From IMG/VR virus record IMGVR_UViG_3300041809_000801, positions 24,935-88,934 of that record: a DNA stretch of 64,000 bases. One strand, 5' to 3'. Position numbers and translations under genes: made by a program. Under the pieces are notes generated by a model that was given only the letters and a program-made list of their open reading frames with translations, ran no database searches and was not told the origin of the DNA. Below are positions 6,605 to 64,000 of the stretch, piece by piece (position 1 is the first letter of the stretch; each line of letters begins with the position of its first letter). The stretch comes from a virus.

Positions 6605-7345
6605 CTACCTAGAATTCAATACTCGTAAATTATCCAAAGCAAGTTCTTTTGCTAAGCACCCACAACTTTTCTTATGCCCGGTACGAAGGAGAGTTGTGGT
6701 TGCTATAGTTGTACCACCACAAGAGCACTGACAATTCCACTGAATCAATCCACGTTTATTACGACCCACTTCAGATTCAACAGTGAGACGTTCAAAAATT
6801 TGACCAACAAGAGAGTGAGTGCTCCAGCGTTTGGCGGAACTCTTCTTGAAGGCTTCACTGATAGCTGTGTGCCCTGCGGGGGACATCCTGTGCTTCATGC
6901 CGGTGTGGGTTACAGCGGCCCTCTTACGACGTTCAGCACCGTGCTCAGCTTCAAACTTACGGTAGCCTTTGAGACGATGGATTTCGTCTTGGTTAGCTCG
7001 TGCCCTTCTCAGCTTATCTTGTATTTCAGCAGTGGGTGTAACCCCGCGACCCCCAGCACATAGGTTGTACCCATGTTTCTGCGCTCCCAACATTTCTACC
7101 AACAGTTTCTCTAACTCGAACAGTTTTTCGTCAGATTGGACATTAGAGATGAGAGGGTAGATTGAAAATTTATCCCACCCATATTTTCGCACTGCATTGT
7201 ACAAATAGGGCTTAGCAGTGCTAGGTTTGTCGCTTCTAAAAATACTGCGCTTTTGTAGCCGCCAGTATTGCTGCAAATCTCGGTTACGAGTTTTCCCGAT
7301 GTAATACTTACCATTGACTTGGTTAACTATGACGTAGACAAACAT
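6605..7345 (-). CDS. GIY-YIG homing endonuclease with zinc-finger-like C-terminal domain
   Basis: A 246-residue protein that opens with the GIY-YIG nuclease core (YVIVNQVNGKYYIGKT, residues 4-19, and the downstream Arg and Glu positions). A basic linker follows, with a NUMOD3-like helix near residues 150-170. The C-terminal domain (about residues 180-235) carries CQCSCGG and KSCGCL. Free-standing GIY-YIG enzymes cut a specific DNA site and spread their own gene. The C-terminal CxC...CGC domain is the same type that forms the two repeats of the 127-residue protein at 31476-31859. Its Shine-Dalgarno lies in a hairpin just upstream. It is probably an insertion in the leftward tail operon rather than a structural gene. 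Confidence 0.88.
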   Translation of the reverse strand: MFVYVIVNQVNGKYYIGKTRNRDLQQYWRLQKRSIFRSDKPSTAKPYLYNAVRKYGWDKFSIYPLISNVQSDEKLFELEKLLVEMLGAQKHGYNLCAGGRGVTPTAEIQDKLRRARANQDEIHRLKGYRKFEAEHGAERRKRAAVTHTGMKHRMSPAGHTAISEAFKKSSAKRWSTHSLVGQIFERLTVESEVGRNKRGLIQWNCQCSCGGTTIATTTLLRTGHKKSCGCLAKELALDNLRVLNSR

Positions 7346-7346
7346 A

Positions 7347-7371
7347 ATGGGCTCCTACTTAAGAAGCCCAT
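7347..7371 (-). promoter_or_regulatory. Hairpin overlapping the ribosome-binding site of the GIY-YIG gene
   Basis: ATGGGCT (7347-7353) and AGCCCAT (7365-7371) form a perfect 7-bp stem with an 11-base loop. On the minus strand the AGGAG Shine-Dalgarno of the endonuclease gene (7356-7352) is partly in the stem and partly in the loop, 6 bases before the ATG at 7345. This would dampen translation. No U-run follows on the minus strand, so it is not a good terminator for the gene upstream. Confidence 0.5.
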
Positions 7372-7406
7372 ATTTTATTTTGTATGTAAGTTGTTGAAAA
7401 CAAAGG

Positions 7407-8045
7407 TCAAAAACTTAAGACCCAACTGAATATGATGTTCACGCCGGGTGGGAGCAATAAGGGGGGTAGAGTTTTGTAGTTGATGAGCGTAATTGTGCTT
7501 TGTGCGGCGGACACGCTCGGATAGTTCGAAATGTTGCCAGTGAAATAGGGAGCAGTCTGCATGTTAGTTACAGGCGAGGTTGTGTTTGTGCCACCACCGA
7601 TGAGACCCATTTCACGGATGCTCTGTGTGATGTTATCCGTCGTTGCATTTACGACGCACTCAAAGTCAACGTAGGTCGAGAGTGTATTGACAGAAGTCCA
7701 CCCTCCACTATTGTTCGGCTGCACAAAGTTGATTGCAGAGAGCGGCTTGCGGAGGAACTCTTGAACGAGAGCAGTCTGAACCGGGGTTTCCTGCGGCTGC
7801 GTCTCAGGAGCCCACGTAGGCGAACCTGCGCCAAGAGCAAGACCCCACACAGAGTACAAGGGCTCATGACCGAGAGGGTAAGGAACGGAGGCGTCTGTGG
7901 GATTGGCGTTCGCCATCAACCGGGCGAACAACCACTTCACCACGTTCACGATGACGTTGTGCTTGGAGTATAGTACCTCTCCGGTATCCTCCCGCATGAT
8001 GCGGATGTTACAGGTCGGGTAGTGCTTGGAGAAGTCTTCAATCAT
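7407..8045 (-). CDS. Putative virion/tail-associated protein
   Basis: A 212-residue protein of unknown family. The ATG at 8045 is chosen because AGAGGGCAG precedes it; a longer frame would overlap the previous gene. The N-terminus (HYPTCNIRIMREDTGEVLY, about residues 6-24) looks like a beta-rich fold, and the rest is rich in Thr, Asn, Ser and Pro as in tail-fibre-like virion proteins. The C-terminus is hydrophobic (INYKTLPPLLLPPGVNIIF). It lies downstream of a 73-residue gene and the Nudix fusion gene in one leftward operon. Confidence 0.65.
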   Translation of the reverse strand: MIEDFSKHYPTCNIRIMREDTGEVLYSKHNVIVNVVKWLFARLMANANPTDASVPYPLGHEPLYSVWGLALGAGSPTWAPETQPQETPVQTALVQEFLRKPLSAINFVQPNNSGGWTSVNTLSTYVDFECVVNATTDNITQSIREMGLIGGGTNTTSPVTNMQTAPYFTGNISNYPSVSAAQSTITLINYKTLPPLLLPPGVNIIFSWVLSF

Positions 8046-13276: not shown

Positions 13277-16200
13277 TTAGCTCCCTGTTGTCACGTAGTT
13301 AATCGTAATGCGTCCGGGCACAAGATACTCTGTCGAAGACATAGTAATGTCGCTTGCCCCGCCCTCTCCATATACCTGATACGTGACAAAGAAGGAAAGA
13401 AGGGAAGGATTCGTCAAAGTTTGTGGCAATGTGATGATGACCTTCTGGTTGTACGCGGAACTCAAAGCCGTTGTTGTATTGATTTGGTCATTGGTTCCAA
13501 TGATGTAAAAATAGCCATTACCAGACACAGTTGCCGGAGCGGTTGCGGTAGTCAAAAATTGCTGAACCGAACTGGTGCGGGTGTAAGCCTGACCCTGATA
13601 TAGGAACCCAACAAACGCATCTGCTTGACCGCCTGAAGGAAGCGTACTGTCAGGAAGGACTGGGCTCTGCGTTATGAAGCTGTGCGCCGGGGTCGCAACT
13701 CCAGCAAAAGCTGGGTCAGAGGACAGAGGAATCCACGTAGTCGCGGTCGGAATGACCACTCCAATATCGTAGGAACCATCACTCTTAGCACACTTAACCA
13801 GCGGAAGGTTGACTGTTTGCACTCCGGTGACCCCCATGACTTGTTGAACAAGTTCCGATTGATACAAAGTGCCACTGGCATTATCGAGAACAAGGTCTAT
13901 GGTGCTGCGAATAATTGGGTCAACCACATCCGCTGAGGCGTTTGATTGCAAAGTCACAGTCATGGTGATGTCAACCGGATTGGCAATCATCGCCTTCACA
14001 AGGACATCAGCCGCAGCGTGCTTAAACGTATCAATTTGGTTAGCAAGAACCTCTACGAAAGCGGGGTACTCGGTGGCAAATGTGAATGCCTCAGTAATGA
14101 AATAGGACACGCTCACCGCTGCCCCATCCGGGATACGGGTGGTTCCAATATTCGCCGCCGAGCGTGCGATTGCTGCTGTGCCTGAAACTGAATCCACCGT
14201 GAGAACGAAATCCTGATTCTCCACCATCACGGTGCCGTTGTAAGTAACCTTGATGTAGCGATTGTCGTGTGGAATCAACGCCCCCACCAACCCAGTGGAG
14301 GCCGAAAGATTGACCGTTCCATCAGGGTTCAACGAGGCACCATCCAACGTGAGCGTTGTGTTTCCATAGCTTTCAGGGAGCCACGTGTTATGTACGAATC
14401 CTTGATTGTCAAGAGTGGAGTATGTTGTACCTGAGAGGGTCTGAGATTCGTTCGATACGAACGTCAAATTTTCAGCTACCTCAAACTCATTGTAGGTCAC
14501 TAGAAGCTGCTGATTATTTTGAATGCTGCTTCCCGTAACTGTGCCTGTAGTGGGGATAACAGCAGTGTTCAGGGATGACGTGAAGGTCACCGTAAAGGAC
14601 GTTCCATTTGAAGAAGAAACAGTCAGGACTGTACCAGAAGGGAACTGAGTTGCGAGTTGTGGGTTCGTCAAATTATTGACAGTAATCTGAGCCCCGATGC
14701 CAAACAGGTTATTGCAGGTAAAAATTGCCTGACTGGTAGCGCCCAAAATCTGAATTGCCGTAACCGGATAAGTCACTGTCAACGGCTGAATGCCATAGGT
14801 GTGATACGGTCCTGTCGAAACGATAGTGTAATCTGCACCGAATCCATATAAAGTAGATTGGTCAGTGGAGCGCACCGATACCACATTACCAAGAACCCCG
14901 TTAATACCTACCGTCAAACTCATAGCCGAGGCGATTGTCACAGGAGTGCCAGTGATGGCTGTAACTGTTGTTGTGACCGGGGCAGTTGTCGTGGTGGAAA
15001 CATCAACCATGTCTCCGGCTTGGTTGGAACCGCCATTCAACAAGAAGTCAGAAGTATGAATGAGGTCTATGAGGTTTGTAGCCACCGTTCCCGTTTGATT
15101 TTCCTGACCTATGACAGAATTCACCGAAATGACTGGCTGAAAAGCGGGGGTATCAGTAAGAGGAGACTGGTATCGAGCCAACAACTGATACGTTGTGCTC
15201 CCCGACTGAGTGGACAAGCTGGCGATTGCCGCCTTGTTAGTCGCCGGGACGCCGTTGAGCACTAAGGGAACAGAAATTTGAGAAAGCGAATCGCCAACAA
15301 TCTGATAAGCCAAGTCAGTTGGGCTCAAAATGATATACCCAGCGACGTTATCAAACTGAGAATTCTCCAAACCAAGATAGAAGCTGCCGTTAGAGCCAGT
15401 GACAAGAAGCTGCACAGCTTGATACAACGGGTATGAGAGCGATGAGTTCGGAATTTGAGCGTTCAGCGTGTTTCTATTGAATGCGTTAAGCGTGATGTAG
15501 GTCGAGGGTGTTCCAAAAGTGCCTGTATTTTGGTATTGAAAAGCGATGACCTCATCCTGCTCAGAGAAACTAACACCCTTTGTGTAGATGTCCACACAAC
15601 CATATACATGTTTCTGACGGATTGGGTCCCAATCGCGGAGCATCTCAGTGTCCCCGGCAGCTACCACAATCGCGTCAACAATTCCGGGCGTAGCCAGAGC
15701 CGTGGTGCGGTATCCGTTGCGAGTACCGGAGTCAACCCCTGTATCAAGTCGAATGAGGATACGAGCAGCGAAACTGGAATTGATTTCGTCATCTTGTCCA
15801 AAAGCGGCGGCTGTCAAATTGGTGCAATACCATCCAGAGGGGGCTCCAGTGCCGATATTGTTGATAGTCCCCGCCCCCACGTTCGTATTACTGCCTGTGG
15901 ATTGACACGAAGCTGGAACACTAACTGCCCACCACCCATTAACCGGGTCGTAGTAAGTGTTGATAGAGTTGGCTGCGATACTAGCCGAGCCTGTTGTCAC
16001 AAAATTCAAGGCTGGGGTTTCTGCGTCAGCAACCGTTGAGACAACAAGGCCGATAGGGAAGGTTACCGAAGAAGTAGGCTTAACATACGTGTAGAAAGTG
16101 ATGTTGACAACAGAACTAGTCGCTCCCTTACGAGTCAACCCAGCCCGTTCGCCCAGCACATCGAACTGGTTGTCGATGAATGTTTGAGTGTCAGCGGAGT

Positions 16201-17461
16201 TTAACCCATACGCACGCGAAATCTGTTGCTTTATTGGAGAAGAATTGAATGGATCACTGATGCCGTTCCCACTCGTATTATCTATCTGTGCAAGCCCCGA
16301 TACTGATTGACTCACACGAGAGAACCATTCGCGTACGCTCATGTTCGAGAGTTCAATCGAAACCGGATCAATCATAAGGTCGCGGAGTTCGGAACGCGGT
16401 GACAGGTCGAGATTCGGATAGTTGCGGTTGACCTGCGTAATCATCCGACCTGCGATGTCTTCTTTACGCTGAAGGGCAAGAAAATCCGTAAGCTGTACAA
16501 GCTTGAGATTTACATAGCCGCATGTAATCGGACCGTTCTGTTGTGATTCGAAAATAGCCTGAGTGTTGGGGTCTTGAATCACCGTGGAGAGCATCGCATA
16601 GAATATGTCCGCCCCAGCCACATCTGACTGTGGGACATCCACGTAGTTGTAGTTGTTCTGTTGAACCGTGTTGATAGTCGTCACAGTTTGAGTTCCACCA
16701 AGCCCGTCGTAAGAAGTGGCAGACTGAGTAGACAGTACAGAAGTATCCGACCGGCTCAATTGTGATGGCGGAACAACGTCTCCATATTGAACATAGGTGG
16801 GGTTGATGCCATCCGAGTCAGTGCTCAACAAAACACGGGTACCAACGGTTCCGGGGTATGTTGGTTCTAGCCATTCAATACGACAGATGTTTTGTGCCAT
16901 GTAGGAGCGCACCGCAGAGGGAGGACCGATAACAATCCCGGAACCACTCACGTAAGGAATGAGGATGAACTTCAATGTAGGAGTGACAGCAATGTAGCCG
17001 AGATTCTCCCACACCACCCCATTGTCCGTTGTAGAAGCACCAACGGTTGTATTGAAGTTTGGAATGATTAGACCCGAGGTTCCGGCTGTAGTCACAAGCT
17101 GAACATATCCGTTGGGGTCAACCAGCCGAAAGTTGAGAATGTACGCTGTGCTTGCTGCCCATGAAGCGGCGAGTGGGTCGTAGTTGCGACCAAGAATTTG
17201 AACGGTAAGGTCACCCTGCGTGGGATCAATCGTTATAGTTCCACCGAACTGGTTTTGCCCATTGACCAGAAGAGGGTCTTTGTTGTAGGTGATTTCATTG
17301 TACGCAAGAACCTCAATCTGGCTCGTATTTGCATCGGCGTAGATGATGTAAGGAAGGGCTGTCGTATCAACAGAGATAGAACTCGTCTGTCCCTGCGTGA
17401 TTGTGGGCAGAATTGGAGTCACCGATATGAGAGCCGTCAATGAAACATCTGGTGTGGGCAT
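13277..17461 (-). CDS. Baseplate wedge protein, gpJ/gp6-like
   Basis: A 1,394-residue protein containing the baseplate J-like core. The region near residues 340-430 (LDLSPRSELRDLMIDP...REWFSRVSQ) and the segment near 545-600 (QDDEINSSFAARILIR...GTRNGYRTTALATPGIVDA) show the family's conserved order. gpJ-type proteins form the wedges that ring the baseplate of contractile tails. It is three to four times longer than P2 gpJ because of beta-rich insertions, as in large myoviruses. One W-x-Y module lies near residues 100-160. It follows the gp25-like gene by a TAATG overlap, the canonical gp25-J-I order. Minus-strand operon. Confidence 0.85.
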   Translation of the reverse strand: MPTPDVSLTALISVTPILPTITQGQTSSISVDTTALPYIIYADANTSQIEVLAYNEITYNKDPLLVNGQNQFGGTITIDPTQGDLTVQILGRNYDPLAASWAASTAYILNFRLVDPNGYVQLVTTAGTSGLIIPNFNTTVGASTTDNGVVWENLGYIAVTPTLKFILIPYVSGSGIVIGPPSAVRSYMAQNICRIEWLEPTYPGTVGTRVLLSTDSDGINPTYVQYGDVVPPSQLSRSDTSVLSTQSATSYDGLGGTQTVTTINTVQQNNYNYVDVPQSDVAGADIFYAMLSTVIQDPNTQAIFESQQNGPITCGYVNLKLVQLTDFLALQRKEDIAGRMITQVNRNYPNLDLSPRSELRDLMIDPVSIELSNMSVREWFSRVSQSVSGLAQIDNTSGNGISDPFNSSPIKQQISRAYGLNSADTQTFIDNQFDVLGERAGLTRKGATSSVVNITFYTYVKPTSSVTFPIGLVVSTVADAETPALNFVTTGSASIAANSINTYYDPVNGWWAVSVPASCQSTGSNTNVGAGTINNIGTGAPSGWYCTNLTAAAFGQDDEINSSFAARILIRLDTGVDSGTRNGYRTTALATPGIVDAIVVAAGDTEMLRDWDPIRQKHVYGCVDIYTKGVSFSEQDEVIAFQYQNTGTFGTPSTYITLNAFNRNTLNAQIPNSSLSYPLYQAVQLLVTGSNGSFYLGLENSQFDNVAGYIILSPTDLAYQIVGDSLSQISVPLVLNGVPATNKAAIASLSTQSGSTTYQLLARYQSPLTDTPAFQPVISVNSVIGQENQTGTVATNLIDLIHTSDFLLNGGSNQAGDMVDVSTTTTAPVTTTVTAITGTPVTIASAMSLTVGINGVLGNVVSVRSTDQSTLYGFGADYTIVSTGPYHTYGIQPLTVTYPVTAIQILGATSQAIFTCNNLFGIGAQITVNNLTNPQLATQFPSGTVLTVSSSNGTSFTVTFTSSLNTAVIPTTGTVTGSSIQNNQQLLVTYNEFEVAENLTFVSNESQTLSGTTYSTLDNQGFVHNTWLPESYGNTTLTLDGASLNPDGTVNLSASTGLVGALIPHDNRYIKVTYNGTVMVENQDFVLTVDSVSGTAAIARSAANIGTTRIPDGAAVSVSYFITEAFTFATEYPAFVEVLANQIDTFKHAAADVLVKAMIANPVDITMTVTLQSNASADVVDPIIRSTIDLVLDNASGTLYQSELVQQVMGVTGVQTVNLPLVKCAKSDGSYDIGVVIPTATTWIPLSSDPAFAGVATPAHSFITQSPVLPDSTLPSGGQADAFVGFLYQGQAYTRTSSVQQFLTTATAPATVSGNGYFYIIGTNDQINTTTALSSAYNQKVIITLPQTLTNPSLLSFFVTYQVYGEGGASDITMSSTEYLVPGRITINYVTTGS

Positions 17462-18234
17462 TATTGATTACCTACTAACTGGGATGACGTGGTTAATGAA
17501 AAACTGACCGGGGTTGCATTGGGAGTGCCATAGGATGTAATGTCCGCCGAAACAGCAATGGAGTTCGGGTCGATTGTGTTCGTCTGCAAGTTCTGTATGT
17601 CTTTCAGCATCTCCTGTGGGTCGAGAGACTGCACTGTTCTTTGGGCCGATTGGATGCTCTTCAAGTTCTGAAGAGCGGTCAAAATCTGGTTCGAAACATC
17701 GGCATCTGTAATCGTCACTCCCCATTTCTTTCCGACATACGTCTTAATCGGACAAGTGAACTGCGGGTAAAACTGACATTGGGAGGTCAGCACCATCTTC
17801 AGCACTCGCTGAACCATTTTGTCGGTGCCAACGATGTGAATAACTGAACCATTGCTGGCTGGTTTAATGTCGTTCAACTGCCCCGCCGTACCACACTTCA
17901 AGCAAAAGTTTTTGATGGTGGTGTAGGAGACTTCAATGAGCGGCACATACCAACGAACCGGCTTCCTGAACATGATTTTGTAAAACTGGTCAGAAGTTGT
18001 AACTCGGTTAATGTCCGGGGTCACAGTGTACCCATACGTCGGGTCATCCGCCTGAACCAACTGACCTCCAATGTAAACCTGCACCTGACTAGCCCCATTG
18101 ATAGGCGCACGCATGTTCAATGCCACGTTGCTGGCAAGATGGAAAGTCATAAAGTCCTGCCAGTCAATGACATACCTTTCAAATGACTGCTGATGGTTAC
18201 ATGGAGCTAACCGAATATTGAAGTCATAACTCAT
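17461..18234 (-). CDS. Baseplate protein, gp25-like
   Basis: A 257-residue protein immediately before the gpJ-like gene and coupled to both neighbours by TAATG overlaps. The middle region (MVQRVLKMVLTSQCQFYPQ, then KTYVGKKWG) follows the gp25/gpW pattern of a helix, 'iL.T..G...f.P.fGc', and an aromatic turn. gp25 clamps wedge proteins to the sheath end in contractile tails. A pair of cysteines (FCLKCGT, about residues 109-115) and a C-terminal Ser/Thr-rich tail are extra. The position is stronger evidence than the weak sequence likeness. Confidence 0.62.
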   Translation of the reverse strand: MSYDFNIRLAPCNHQQSFERYVIDWQDFMTFHLASNVALNMRAPINGASQVQVYIGGQLVQADDPTYGYTVTPDINRVTTSDQFYKIMFRKPVRWYVPLIEVSYTTIKNFCLKCGTAGQLNDIKPASNGSVIHIVGTDKMVQRVLKMVLTSQCQFYPQFTCPIKTYVGKKWGVTITDADVSNQILTALQNLKSIQSAQRTVQSLDPQEMLKDIQNLQTNTIDPNSIAVSADITSYGTPNATPVSFSLTTSSQLVGNQ

Positions 18235-62532: not shown

Positions 62533-62610
62533 GCTCCGGTGGTGTGAGTGGCCTATACCGCCTCCCCTACAAGGAGGATTTCACAGGTTCGAATCCTGTC
62601 TGGAGCACCA
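62533..62610 (+). tRNA. tRNA-Val (TAC)
   Basis: Acceptor stem GCTCCGG/CTGGAGC, anticodon stem CCTCC/GGAGG, loop CCTACAA with anticodon TAC, T stem ACAGG/CCTGT with loop TTCGAAT, encoded CCA. The base before the anticodon is C rather than the near-universal T33, and only one base separates the acceptor and D stems, so it is a slightly odd tRNA. Confidence 0.72.
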
Positions 62611-62612
62611 AT

Positions 62613-62688
62613 GCGGGAGTAGCTCAGTTGGTAGAGCGCAACCTTGCCAAGGTTGAGGTCGCGGGTTCGAATCCCACATCCCGCTCCA
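62613..62688 (+). tRNA. tRNA-Gly (GCC)
   Basis: Acceptor GCGGGA/TCCCGC (one mismatch at base 7), D arm AGCTCAGTTGGTAGAGC, anticodon stem CAACC/GGTTG with loop TTGCCAA, T loop TTCGAAT, encoded CCA. A normal canonical tRNA two bases after tRNA-Val. Confidence 0.92.
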
Positions 62689-62703: not shown

Positions 62704-63312
62704 TTAGTGGGCTCGTCGTTCAGCGGGAGGACTACACGCTTGCACCGTGCCAACGAGAGTTCGAATCTCTCCGGGTCCACCAGATTTTAGATTTGTGTAC
62801 ATGCCATCATGGGCTGTGTAGTGTTCCTCTTCATGACAGGTTGGACACAGAATTTCAAGGTTTTCGGGTTTACCATTTTTTCGGTTACGGTCGATATGGT
62901 GTACTCGTAAAACAGGGATGTGGCGGTTGTAGCCACATCTGTTGCATCGGGCAGGATGGTGTCTAAATGCGATTTTTCTGTATTTAAGTTCTGACGTTCC
63001 ATAATGTTCAGGCTGAATCGCAGAGCAGTTACCGTCATCAATGCTTTGGGCTTTATTTTTACAGACGCGAGAGCAGAAACGCAGACCGCTCTTGGATTTT
63101 TTCAGATTGCTTTTGAACTTCTTGAAGGTAGTCTTGCAATAAACACAGGTTACTTCCACTGATTCACGACCCGGTTGGGCACAGGTCAGGGAACAAAATT
63201 TAAGCTTGTTGTGGGTGGAGCCATAGTAAGGTTCCTTGCAGTTTTCACAGTAACGCAAGTAAAGTCGGCGTTTCTTGCCATCTTTACATTTGGAGATAAT
63301 CTCCTTCTCCAT
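62704..63312 (-). CDS. HNH homing endonuclease with zinc-ribbon region
   Basis: A 202-residue protein; the ATG at 63312 with GAGG about 8 bases before is preferred, since the frame before it runs through rnpB. Cysteine pairs (CENCKEPYYG, CSLTC, CVYCKTT, CSRVC) form several zinc ribbons before the HNH core VLRVHHIDRNRKNG...LEILCPTCHEEEH (about residues 135-165). The last 28 residues are read from the antisense strand of tRNA-Ala, and the stop lies just beyond the tRNA. It is a free-standing homing nuclease placed between tRNA-Ala and rnpB. Confidence 0.82.
   Translation of the reverse strand: MEKEIISKCKDGKKRRLYLRYCENCKEPYYGSTHNKLKFCSLTCAQPGRESVEVTCVYCKTTFKKFKSNLKKSKSGLRFCSRVCKNKAQSIDDGNCSAIQPEHYGTSELKYRKIAFRHHPARCNRCGYNRHIPVLRVHHIDRNRKNGKPENLEILCPTCHEEEHYTAHDGMYTNLKSGGPGEIRTLVGTVQACSPPAERRAH
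62709..62782 (+). tRNA. tRNA-Ala (TGC)
   Basis: Acceptor GGGCTCG/CGGGTCC (one G-T pair), anticodon stem CACG/CGTG with loop CTTGCAC and anticodon TGC, T stem GAGAG/CTCTC with loop TTCGAAT, encoded CCA. It is overlapped on the opposite strand by the end of the HNH gene. Confidence 0.88.
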
Positions 63313-63377: not shown

Positions 63378-63706
63378 TGCACTGGAACTGGACAATCGCG
63401 ACGTGGCGCAATACCACTTCGAGGAAGTTCGGGACTCCATAGGACAGCATGTAGGGTAACGCCCTAGCAGTTGGCGGCTTAACCGCCGTCGATTGACGAT
63501 TAGAGCAACAGAGACGAGCCGATTTAATTCGGGTGAAACGGGCAATCTCCATGTGGAGCAATTCCAAATAGGCCGTGAGACTTGTGTCCGAGTCGTTATC
63601 AAGCGGCGGGTTGGGAGCTAGAGCCAGACGGTAACGGCTGGCCGAGACGAATGATTGTGCATGAGGGAAACCTCAAGACAGAATCCCGGCTATAGGTTCC
63701 AGTGCA
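63378..63706 (+). ncRNA. rnpB: RNase P RNA (catalytic subunit)
   Basis: The ribozyme that cuts 5' leaders from pre-tRNAs. P1 is TGCACTGGAAC (63378-63388) with GTTCCAGTGCA (63696-63706), 11 perfect pairs at the two ends. The 5' P4 strand region is GAGGAAGTTCGGGACTCC (from 63420), followed by ATAGGACAG and GGGTAACGCCC. AGAGCAACAGAGACGA, GGGTGAAACGGG and GGAGCAATTCCAAATAGG match the conserved core. AGCCAG...GGCTGGCCGAGACGAATGATTG and the 3' P4 strand ACAGAATCCCGGC (near 63678) match bacterial type A RNAs. The region equivalent to P13/P14 is missing, giving about 330 bases. It lies among phage tRNA genes. No RnpA protein gene is seen, so the host protein is presumably borrowed. Confidence 0.93.
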
Positions 63707-63781
63707 TTAAGCGGGGTGACACCTTCCATGGCGAAAGCCAAAAGTGGTGTGGCACAACGGAGAGGACGTTGAGATTTTTGA

Positions 63782-63855
63782 GCGAGGTTGGTATATGGGT
63801 TGTGCCCAGTCCTTCCAAGTCTGAGAAAGGGGTTCGAGTCCCCTACCTCGCTCCA
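63782..63855 (+). tRNA. tRNA-Gly (TCC)
   Basis: Acceptor GCGAGGT/ACCTCGC, anticodon stem CAGTC/GTCTG with one T-T mismatch, loop CTTCCAA with anticodon TCC, T stem GGGG/CCCC with loop TTCGAGT, encoded CCA. It lies 75 bases after the end of rnpB. Confidence 0.85.
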
Positions 63856-63979
63856 AGCTTAGGTGCCGTGTTCACCACCGTCTAGTAGCTTCGCTGTGGT
63901 GGCGAAGTGAAAAACGGGGGCGGAAGCGGCTCCGGTGGAGGGTGGGCTTAACCAGCCCACCAACCCGAACGGTGTTATA
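63856..63979 (+). other. Structured, non-coding stretch between tRNA genes
   Basis: No coding frame or tRNA can be supported. It contains a 6-bp hairpin CTTCGC/GCGAAG (63889-63907), a GC-rich middle, and a perfect 8-bp hairpin GGTGGGCT-TAACC-AGCCCACC (63941-63961). It may be a small RNA or a processing spacer. Confidence 0.4.
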
Positions 63980-64000
63980 GGCGCGGTACCCAAGTGGTAA
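63980..64000 (+). tRNA. Start of a further tRNA (cut by window end)
   Basis: GGCGCGG followed by TACCCAAGTGGTAA has the form of an acceptor arm and D arm of a class II or Tyr/Leu/Ser-type tRNA. The anticodon is outside the window. Confidence 0.6.

Follow-up and report, generated by a model that had tools for sequence, protein, structure and literature searches.

Does a phage genome carry its own RNase P RNA within a tRNA array and, if so, what would the RNA do there? RNase P RNA is an ancient catalytic RNA that trims tRNAs, and it is among the few RNAs that have been traced to the last common ancestor. To our knowledge it has been regarded as strictly cellular, viruses being thought to leave the trimming of tRNAs wholly to the host. 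Its lack has been used as one sign of phage origin for large contigs (PMC8172020). The stretch of DNA analysed here, referred to as the window, comprises 64,000 nucleotides, namely bases 24935-88934 of an 88,934-base virus record (G000), and its right end is the end of the contig. A first-pass annotation of this sequence had proposed that it holds a complete type A RNase P RNA, lying between phage tRNA genes and not in a host segment. The features that bear on this proposal are the following, in window coordinates:

13277-17461, minus strand: baseplate J-like protein (PF04865, 9.3e-13)
62533-62610, plus strand: tRNA-Val(TAC), CCA encoded
62613-62688, plus strand: tRNA-Gly(GCC), CCA encoded
62704-63312, minus strand: HNH endonuclease ORF, 202 aa (PF01844, 1.1e-5; translation)
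62709-62782, plus strand: tRNA-Ala(TGC), CCA encoded
63378-63706, plus strand: RNase P RNA, rnpB-like, class A, from P1 end to P1 end (RF00010 and P1 reading)
63426-63434, plus strand: 5' strand of P4, AGTTCGGGA (E. coli nt 66-74), with the U69 bulge at 63429 (alignment, P4 tables)
63608-63612, plus strand: L15, GGGTT, containing GGU (alignment, motif count)
63684-63691, plus strand: 3' strand of P4, TCCCGGCT (E. coli nt 353-360) (alignment, P4 tables)
63782-63855, plus strand: tRNA-Gly(TCC), CCA encoded, the next gene downstream of the RNase P RNA

In the Infernal check with the Rfam class A model that the annotation had suggested, run as a cmscan of all 4227 Rfam families, RF00010 (bacterial class A) matched significantly at 63380-63708 on the plus strand, with 165.2 bits, an E value of 1.7e-51 and coverage of model positions 1-367 of 367; the gathering cut-off of this family is 100 bits. 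As read from the sequence, P1 is formed by 63378-63388 (TGCACTGGAAC) and 63696-63706 (GTTCCAGTGCA) in 11 Watson-Crick pairs, and because these paired ends fit them better, the coordinates 63378-63706 were preferred over the model ends. A full-length match above the cut-off and an 11-bp P1 thus bear out the claim of a complete RNase P RNA. P4, which in E. coli numbering pairs 66-68 with 358-360 and 70-74 with 353-357 around a bulged U69, has all eight of its pairs formed in the window RNA, and the bulged U69 is present. L15 carries GGU, the motif to which the 3' CCA of tRNA binds in known bacterial RNase P. The P13/P14 arm of the specificity domain is missing, 43 model positions being deleted in the window RNA and in most of its relatives, but loss of P13/P14 is also known from various bacteria (PMC8172020), so its absence is not decisive against class A. 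The whole record holds a single RNase P RNA. Sequence and fold place the window RNA in class A, as a new and virus-borne variant.

The Val, Gly and Ala tRNAs upstream and the Gly(TCC) tRNA downstream are all encoded on the strand of the RNase P RNA, and the last of them starts 75 nt 3' of it, with no direct abutment. The space between tRNA-Ala and the RNase P RNA is filled by the antisense HNH ORF; the closest record with this synteny, G027 (L030/L089), has 10 nt between the end of tRNA-Ala and the RNase P RNA, and the ORF was probably inserted there by homing. At 63975-64000 of the window the contig apparently stops within another tRNA-like sequence, and the array seems to continue past the end of the record.

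Since the RNA lies at the very edge of its record, about 228-300 nt from the contig end, it might be host DNA, or the product of a faulty assembly, joined to a phage contig. We pattern-scanned 2.9 million virus contigs and verified the candidates with RF00010. About 50 virus records, of up to 455,708 bases, carry an RNase P RNA (near copies counted, host flanks excluded); a match of about 334 bits close to the end of a contig was taken to mark a host flank. Most of the viral copies are set in tRNA arrays, and the order Val-Gly-Ala-(...)-RNase P-Gly(TCC) recurs, for example in L131, L133 and L134. Furthermore, 11 other RNase P-bearing records encode, on the same contig, a homologue of the window baseplate protein with 49-84% identity, and the phage type of P4 described below is nearly absent from about 85,000 prokaryote genomes. 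Contamination, to which we assign next to no probability, is excluded by independent records that share this gene order and the phage baseplate gene, and the segment is confirmed as phage rather than host. The search of virus genomes with RF00010, which the annotation had also proposed, thus upholds a phage-borne RNA inside a tRNA array, as a recurring family rather than as one contig.

The window baseplate protein is 43% identical over 94% to the baseplate wedge of Tunturi_5, a jumbo phage of Tunturiibacter (Acidobacteriota) with 43 tRNAs, a CCA-adding enzyme and a tRNA ligase (PMC11924767), and from this kinship we infer that G000 may have an acidobacterial host. Tunturi_5, the nearest isolate, gave no match when searched with RF00010; because it lacks the RNA while having so many tRNAs, the RNA is dispensable for a life style of this kind. 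Other genes of G000 include a head decoration protein, weak portal and tail matches, a DnaB-type helicase, a class II RNR and GIY-YIG and HNH endonucleases. The record is 88.9 kb long, and relatives with both baseplate and RNase P range from 265 to 456 kb (G007, G054, G070, G086, G096). The terminase and sheath families (PF03237, PF04984) matched in few of the RNase P-bearing records, so it is the baseplate homologue and the IMG/VR class that identify the carriers as phages. A second tRNA array lies elsewhere in G000, outside the window; it contains, at 17917-17994 (-) of the record, a CTA-anticodon tRNA (ARAGORN 'tRNA-Pyl') that is a possible amber suppressor. ARAGORN also reported a tmRNA* with the tag AEPMALAAAA in G000 (L003 3021-3340 (-)), and in L209 an Rfam permuted tmRNA (7151-7485) adjoins RNase P and tRNAs.

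By blastn, the window RNA had no relatives among phages and plasmids, and no cultured phage with an RNase P RNA was found with the window and other viral and bacterial RNase P queries. The matches of these other queries in phage entries were to cellular, cellular-looking or unannotated metagenome pieces only. One of them, 'Microcystis phage MaAM05', was not accepted as a phage isolate, because fliM, fabI, engB and glyS are the neighbours of its RNase P RNA; the deposited sequence (MW495066.1 109323-121669, L163) resembles a bacterial chromosome.

The phage RNAs have a median length of 314 nt, against 381 nt for bacterial ones. Among the smallest in the set are the RNase P-like RNAs of L100, L093 and L146 (G059, G035, G081), which measure just 203-221 nt and have mostly lost the specificity domain; P4 is intact in L093 and L100. 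A similar hairpin (GTGNTTGGAAGCGT...CTTCCCAACCAA) is shared by four phage RNase P RNAs (L089 597-634, L151 607-644, L154 731-796 and L095 801-838), where it occupies the P9 region in three and the P3 region in one (G044). It occurs once per examined locus, always within RNase P, and appears to be either mobile or protein-binding.

The P4 helix sets many of the viral copies apart from the bacterial ones. All 38 scored bacterial RNAs have G-C at pair 68-358; in the 37 RNAs of the viral set, which include those of G019 and G004 (neither with U68.G358), this pair is U.G in 18, G-C in 17 and C-G in 2. The viral-set P4 also varies at pairs 67-359, 71-356, 73-354 and 74-353, U69 being invariant. In 26 distinct P4 rows, which include one from G004, were partly recruited by P4 patterns and are not independent where related, all 208 of 208 P4 cells are paired, and both sides have changed in six of the eight pairs. 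Double-changed cells number 52, as against 15.7 +/- 3.3 after shuffling (0 of 500 shuffles as high), and sliding the P4 partner strand leaves five or fewer. RNAalifold recovered the RNase P fold on 12 relatives, 44 of its 73 pairs showing compensatory change, and by motif count J18/2, J2/4 and the GGU of L15 are retained in nearly all phage copies. Such compensatory change shows that a folded and probably catalytic RNA has long been under selection.

A pattern for the P4 strand, GAGGAAGTTCNGGNCTNCANAG, proved specific to the viral RNAs: all 19 of its virus matches are RNase P RNAs (RF00010 E <= 0.001), and in 84,980 prokaryote genomes it gave 13 matches, of which one had the P4 partner and an RF00010 match. 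This one RNA (L127 476-807 (-), JANWKP010000389.1) scores 64.8 bits, below the gathering cut-off, and lies on a 12.7-kb contig binned in a Nitrososphaerales archaeon MAG; it is probably misbinned viral DNA. Of 74 RNAs placed in a tree, 29 of viral origin share one side of a branch with support 97/90. The RNAs of G019 and G004 sit among bacteria in this tree and were dropped as members of the phage lineage. The 7.1-kb record G004 (L007/L085) packs 27 tRNAs into 7 kb, and its RNase P RNA, closest to bacterial copies, is perhaps a separate, recent capture. Given that the bacterial sample of the tree is rich in Planctomycetota and holds no known Acidobacteriota, and that several branches are long, the depth and the single origin of the viral lineage are not proved. 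These data also bear on the possibility that the RNA is a functionless host gene acquired along with the tRNAs. Genes are easily gained and lost in phage tRNA arrays, and Tunturi_5 does without the RNA, as such a passenger would allow; however, covariation throughout the RNase P RNA contradicts this account and the grouping of 29 phage RNAs beyond a supported branch indicates long retention, which makes it very improbable.

We consider it likely, on comparative sequence grounds, that the window RNA works as an RNase P RNA, belongs to an old lineage specific to viruses and matures phage tRNAs together with host RnpA. It would be transcribed together with the tRNAs of the array, bind host RnpA and cleave the 5' leaders of phage pre-tRNAs, and cleavage at the following tRNA would also free its own 3' end. 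Phage tRNAs could in this way still mature during a shortage of host RNase P or after shutdown of host transcription. In 14 loci the modelled 3' end of RNase P lies 0-9 nt before a tRNA, and for 36 bacterial RNase P copies no tRNA lies on the same strand within 500 nt; where the RNase P 3' end abuts a tRNA, cutting the 5' end of that tRNA would therefore release the RNase P RNA. RnpA (PF00825) was found in none of 39 virus records, G000 included, most of which may be fragments, and the 10 control bacteria were positive; host RnpA is therefore the likely partner. A CCA-adding enzyme is encoded by several of the larger relatives. Processing of phage tRNAs appears to be the best-supported function of the window RNA, because the catalytic core and the L15 GGU are kept, the tRNAs encode CCA and related copies are placed 0-9 nt before a tRNA. 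The activity could be low, with P13/P14 missing in most copies and U68.G358 beside the catalytic metal site. For the more specific proposition of an ancient phage-inherited lineage with a rewritten P4 (U68.G358 beside the metal-binding U69), which would mature itself from tRNA operons and form a hybrid enzyme with host RnpA, the arguments seem to us evenly balanced.

The rewritten P4 beside the metal site and the trimmed specificity domain without P13/P14 could also shift the choice of substrate. The RNA would then be active and share host RnpA, its main targets being host RNAs or phage mRNAs between the tRNAs instead of tRNA leaders. We hold this to be unlikely, as the kept GGU of L15, the CCA-encoding neighbour tRNAs and the location in a tRNA array all indicate tRNA precursors. 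Competition of the phage RNA for host RnpA is possible. A still less likely alternative is a non-catalytic decoy which sequesters host RnpA and lowers host RNase P, starving host translation or blocking defence. The lack of a phage RnpA in the 39 records and the retention of the protein-facing regions J18/2 and J2/4 agree with a decoy, but it would have no need for an invariant U69, a CCA-binding loop and a base-pair-perfect P4. Maturation of phage tRNAs by a functional ribozyme thus remains the reading that we prefer.

With a virus-borne lineage of this kind, the ribozyme step of the translation machinery is one that phages too can carry, and cells and viruses are not separable by the presence or absence of RNase P RNA. 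The most conserved active-site helix becomes available in dozens of natural versions, with which the tolerance of the metal site may be tested, and the lineage raises a testable idea on the reason for big phage tRNA arrays.

In the literature searched, which excludes preprints and most subscription papers, no report of a phage RNase P RNA was found, and priority is not established; the overviews of jumbo and huge phages searched leave it unmentioned. Surveys that look for tRNA and tmRNA alone would miss such RNAs. The megaphages of PMC8172020 are described with tRNAs and a tmRNA only. The carrier records resemble tRNA-processing jumbo phages (Tunturi_5, PMC11924767; huge phages, PMC7162821), which have dozens of tRNAs, a tmRNA, a CCA-adding enzyme and a tRNA ligase; unlike the records described here, these two reports make no mention of RNase P RNA. 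The phage RNAs are like those of the Candidate Phyla Radiation (CPR) in having lost P13/P14, in being smaller and in falling, in some cases, below the Rfam cut-off; however, CPR RNAs belong to the cell itself and lack the UGG of L15 in about two thirds of cases (PMC8172020), whereas the phage copies mostly have the GGU. With the bacterial class A RNA (rnpB, M1 RNA; RF00010) they share the order of helices, the CR motifs, the U69 bulge, the L15 GGU and the 11-bp P1, and they differ from it in being carried by phages in tRNA arrays, in the missing P13/P14 and in a P4 re-paired at 67-359, 68-358, 71-356, 73-354 and 74-353.
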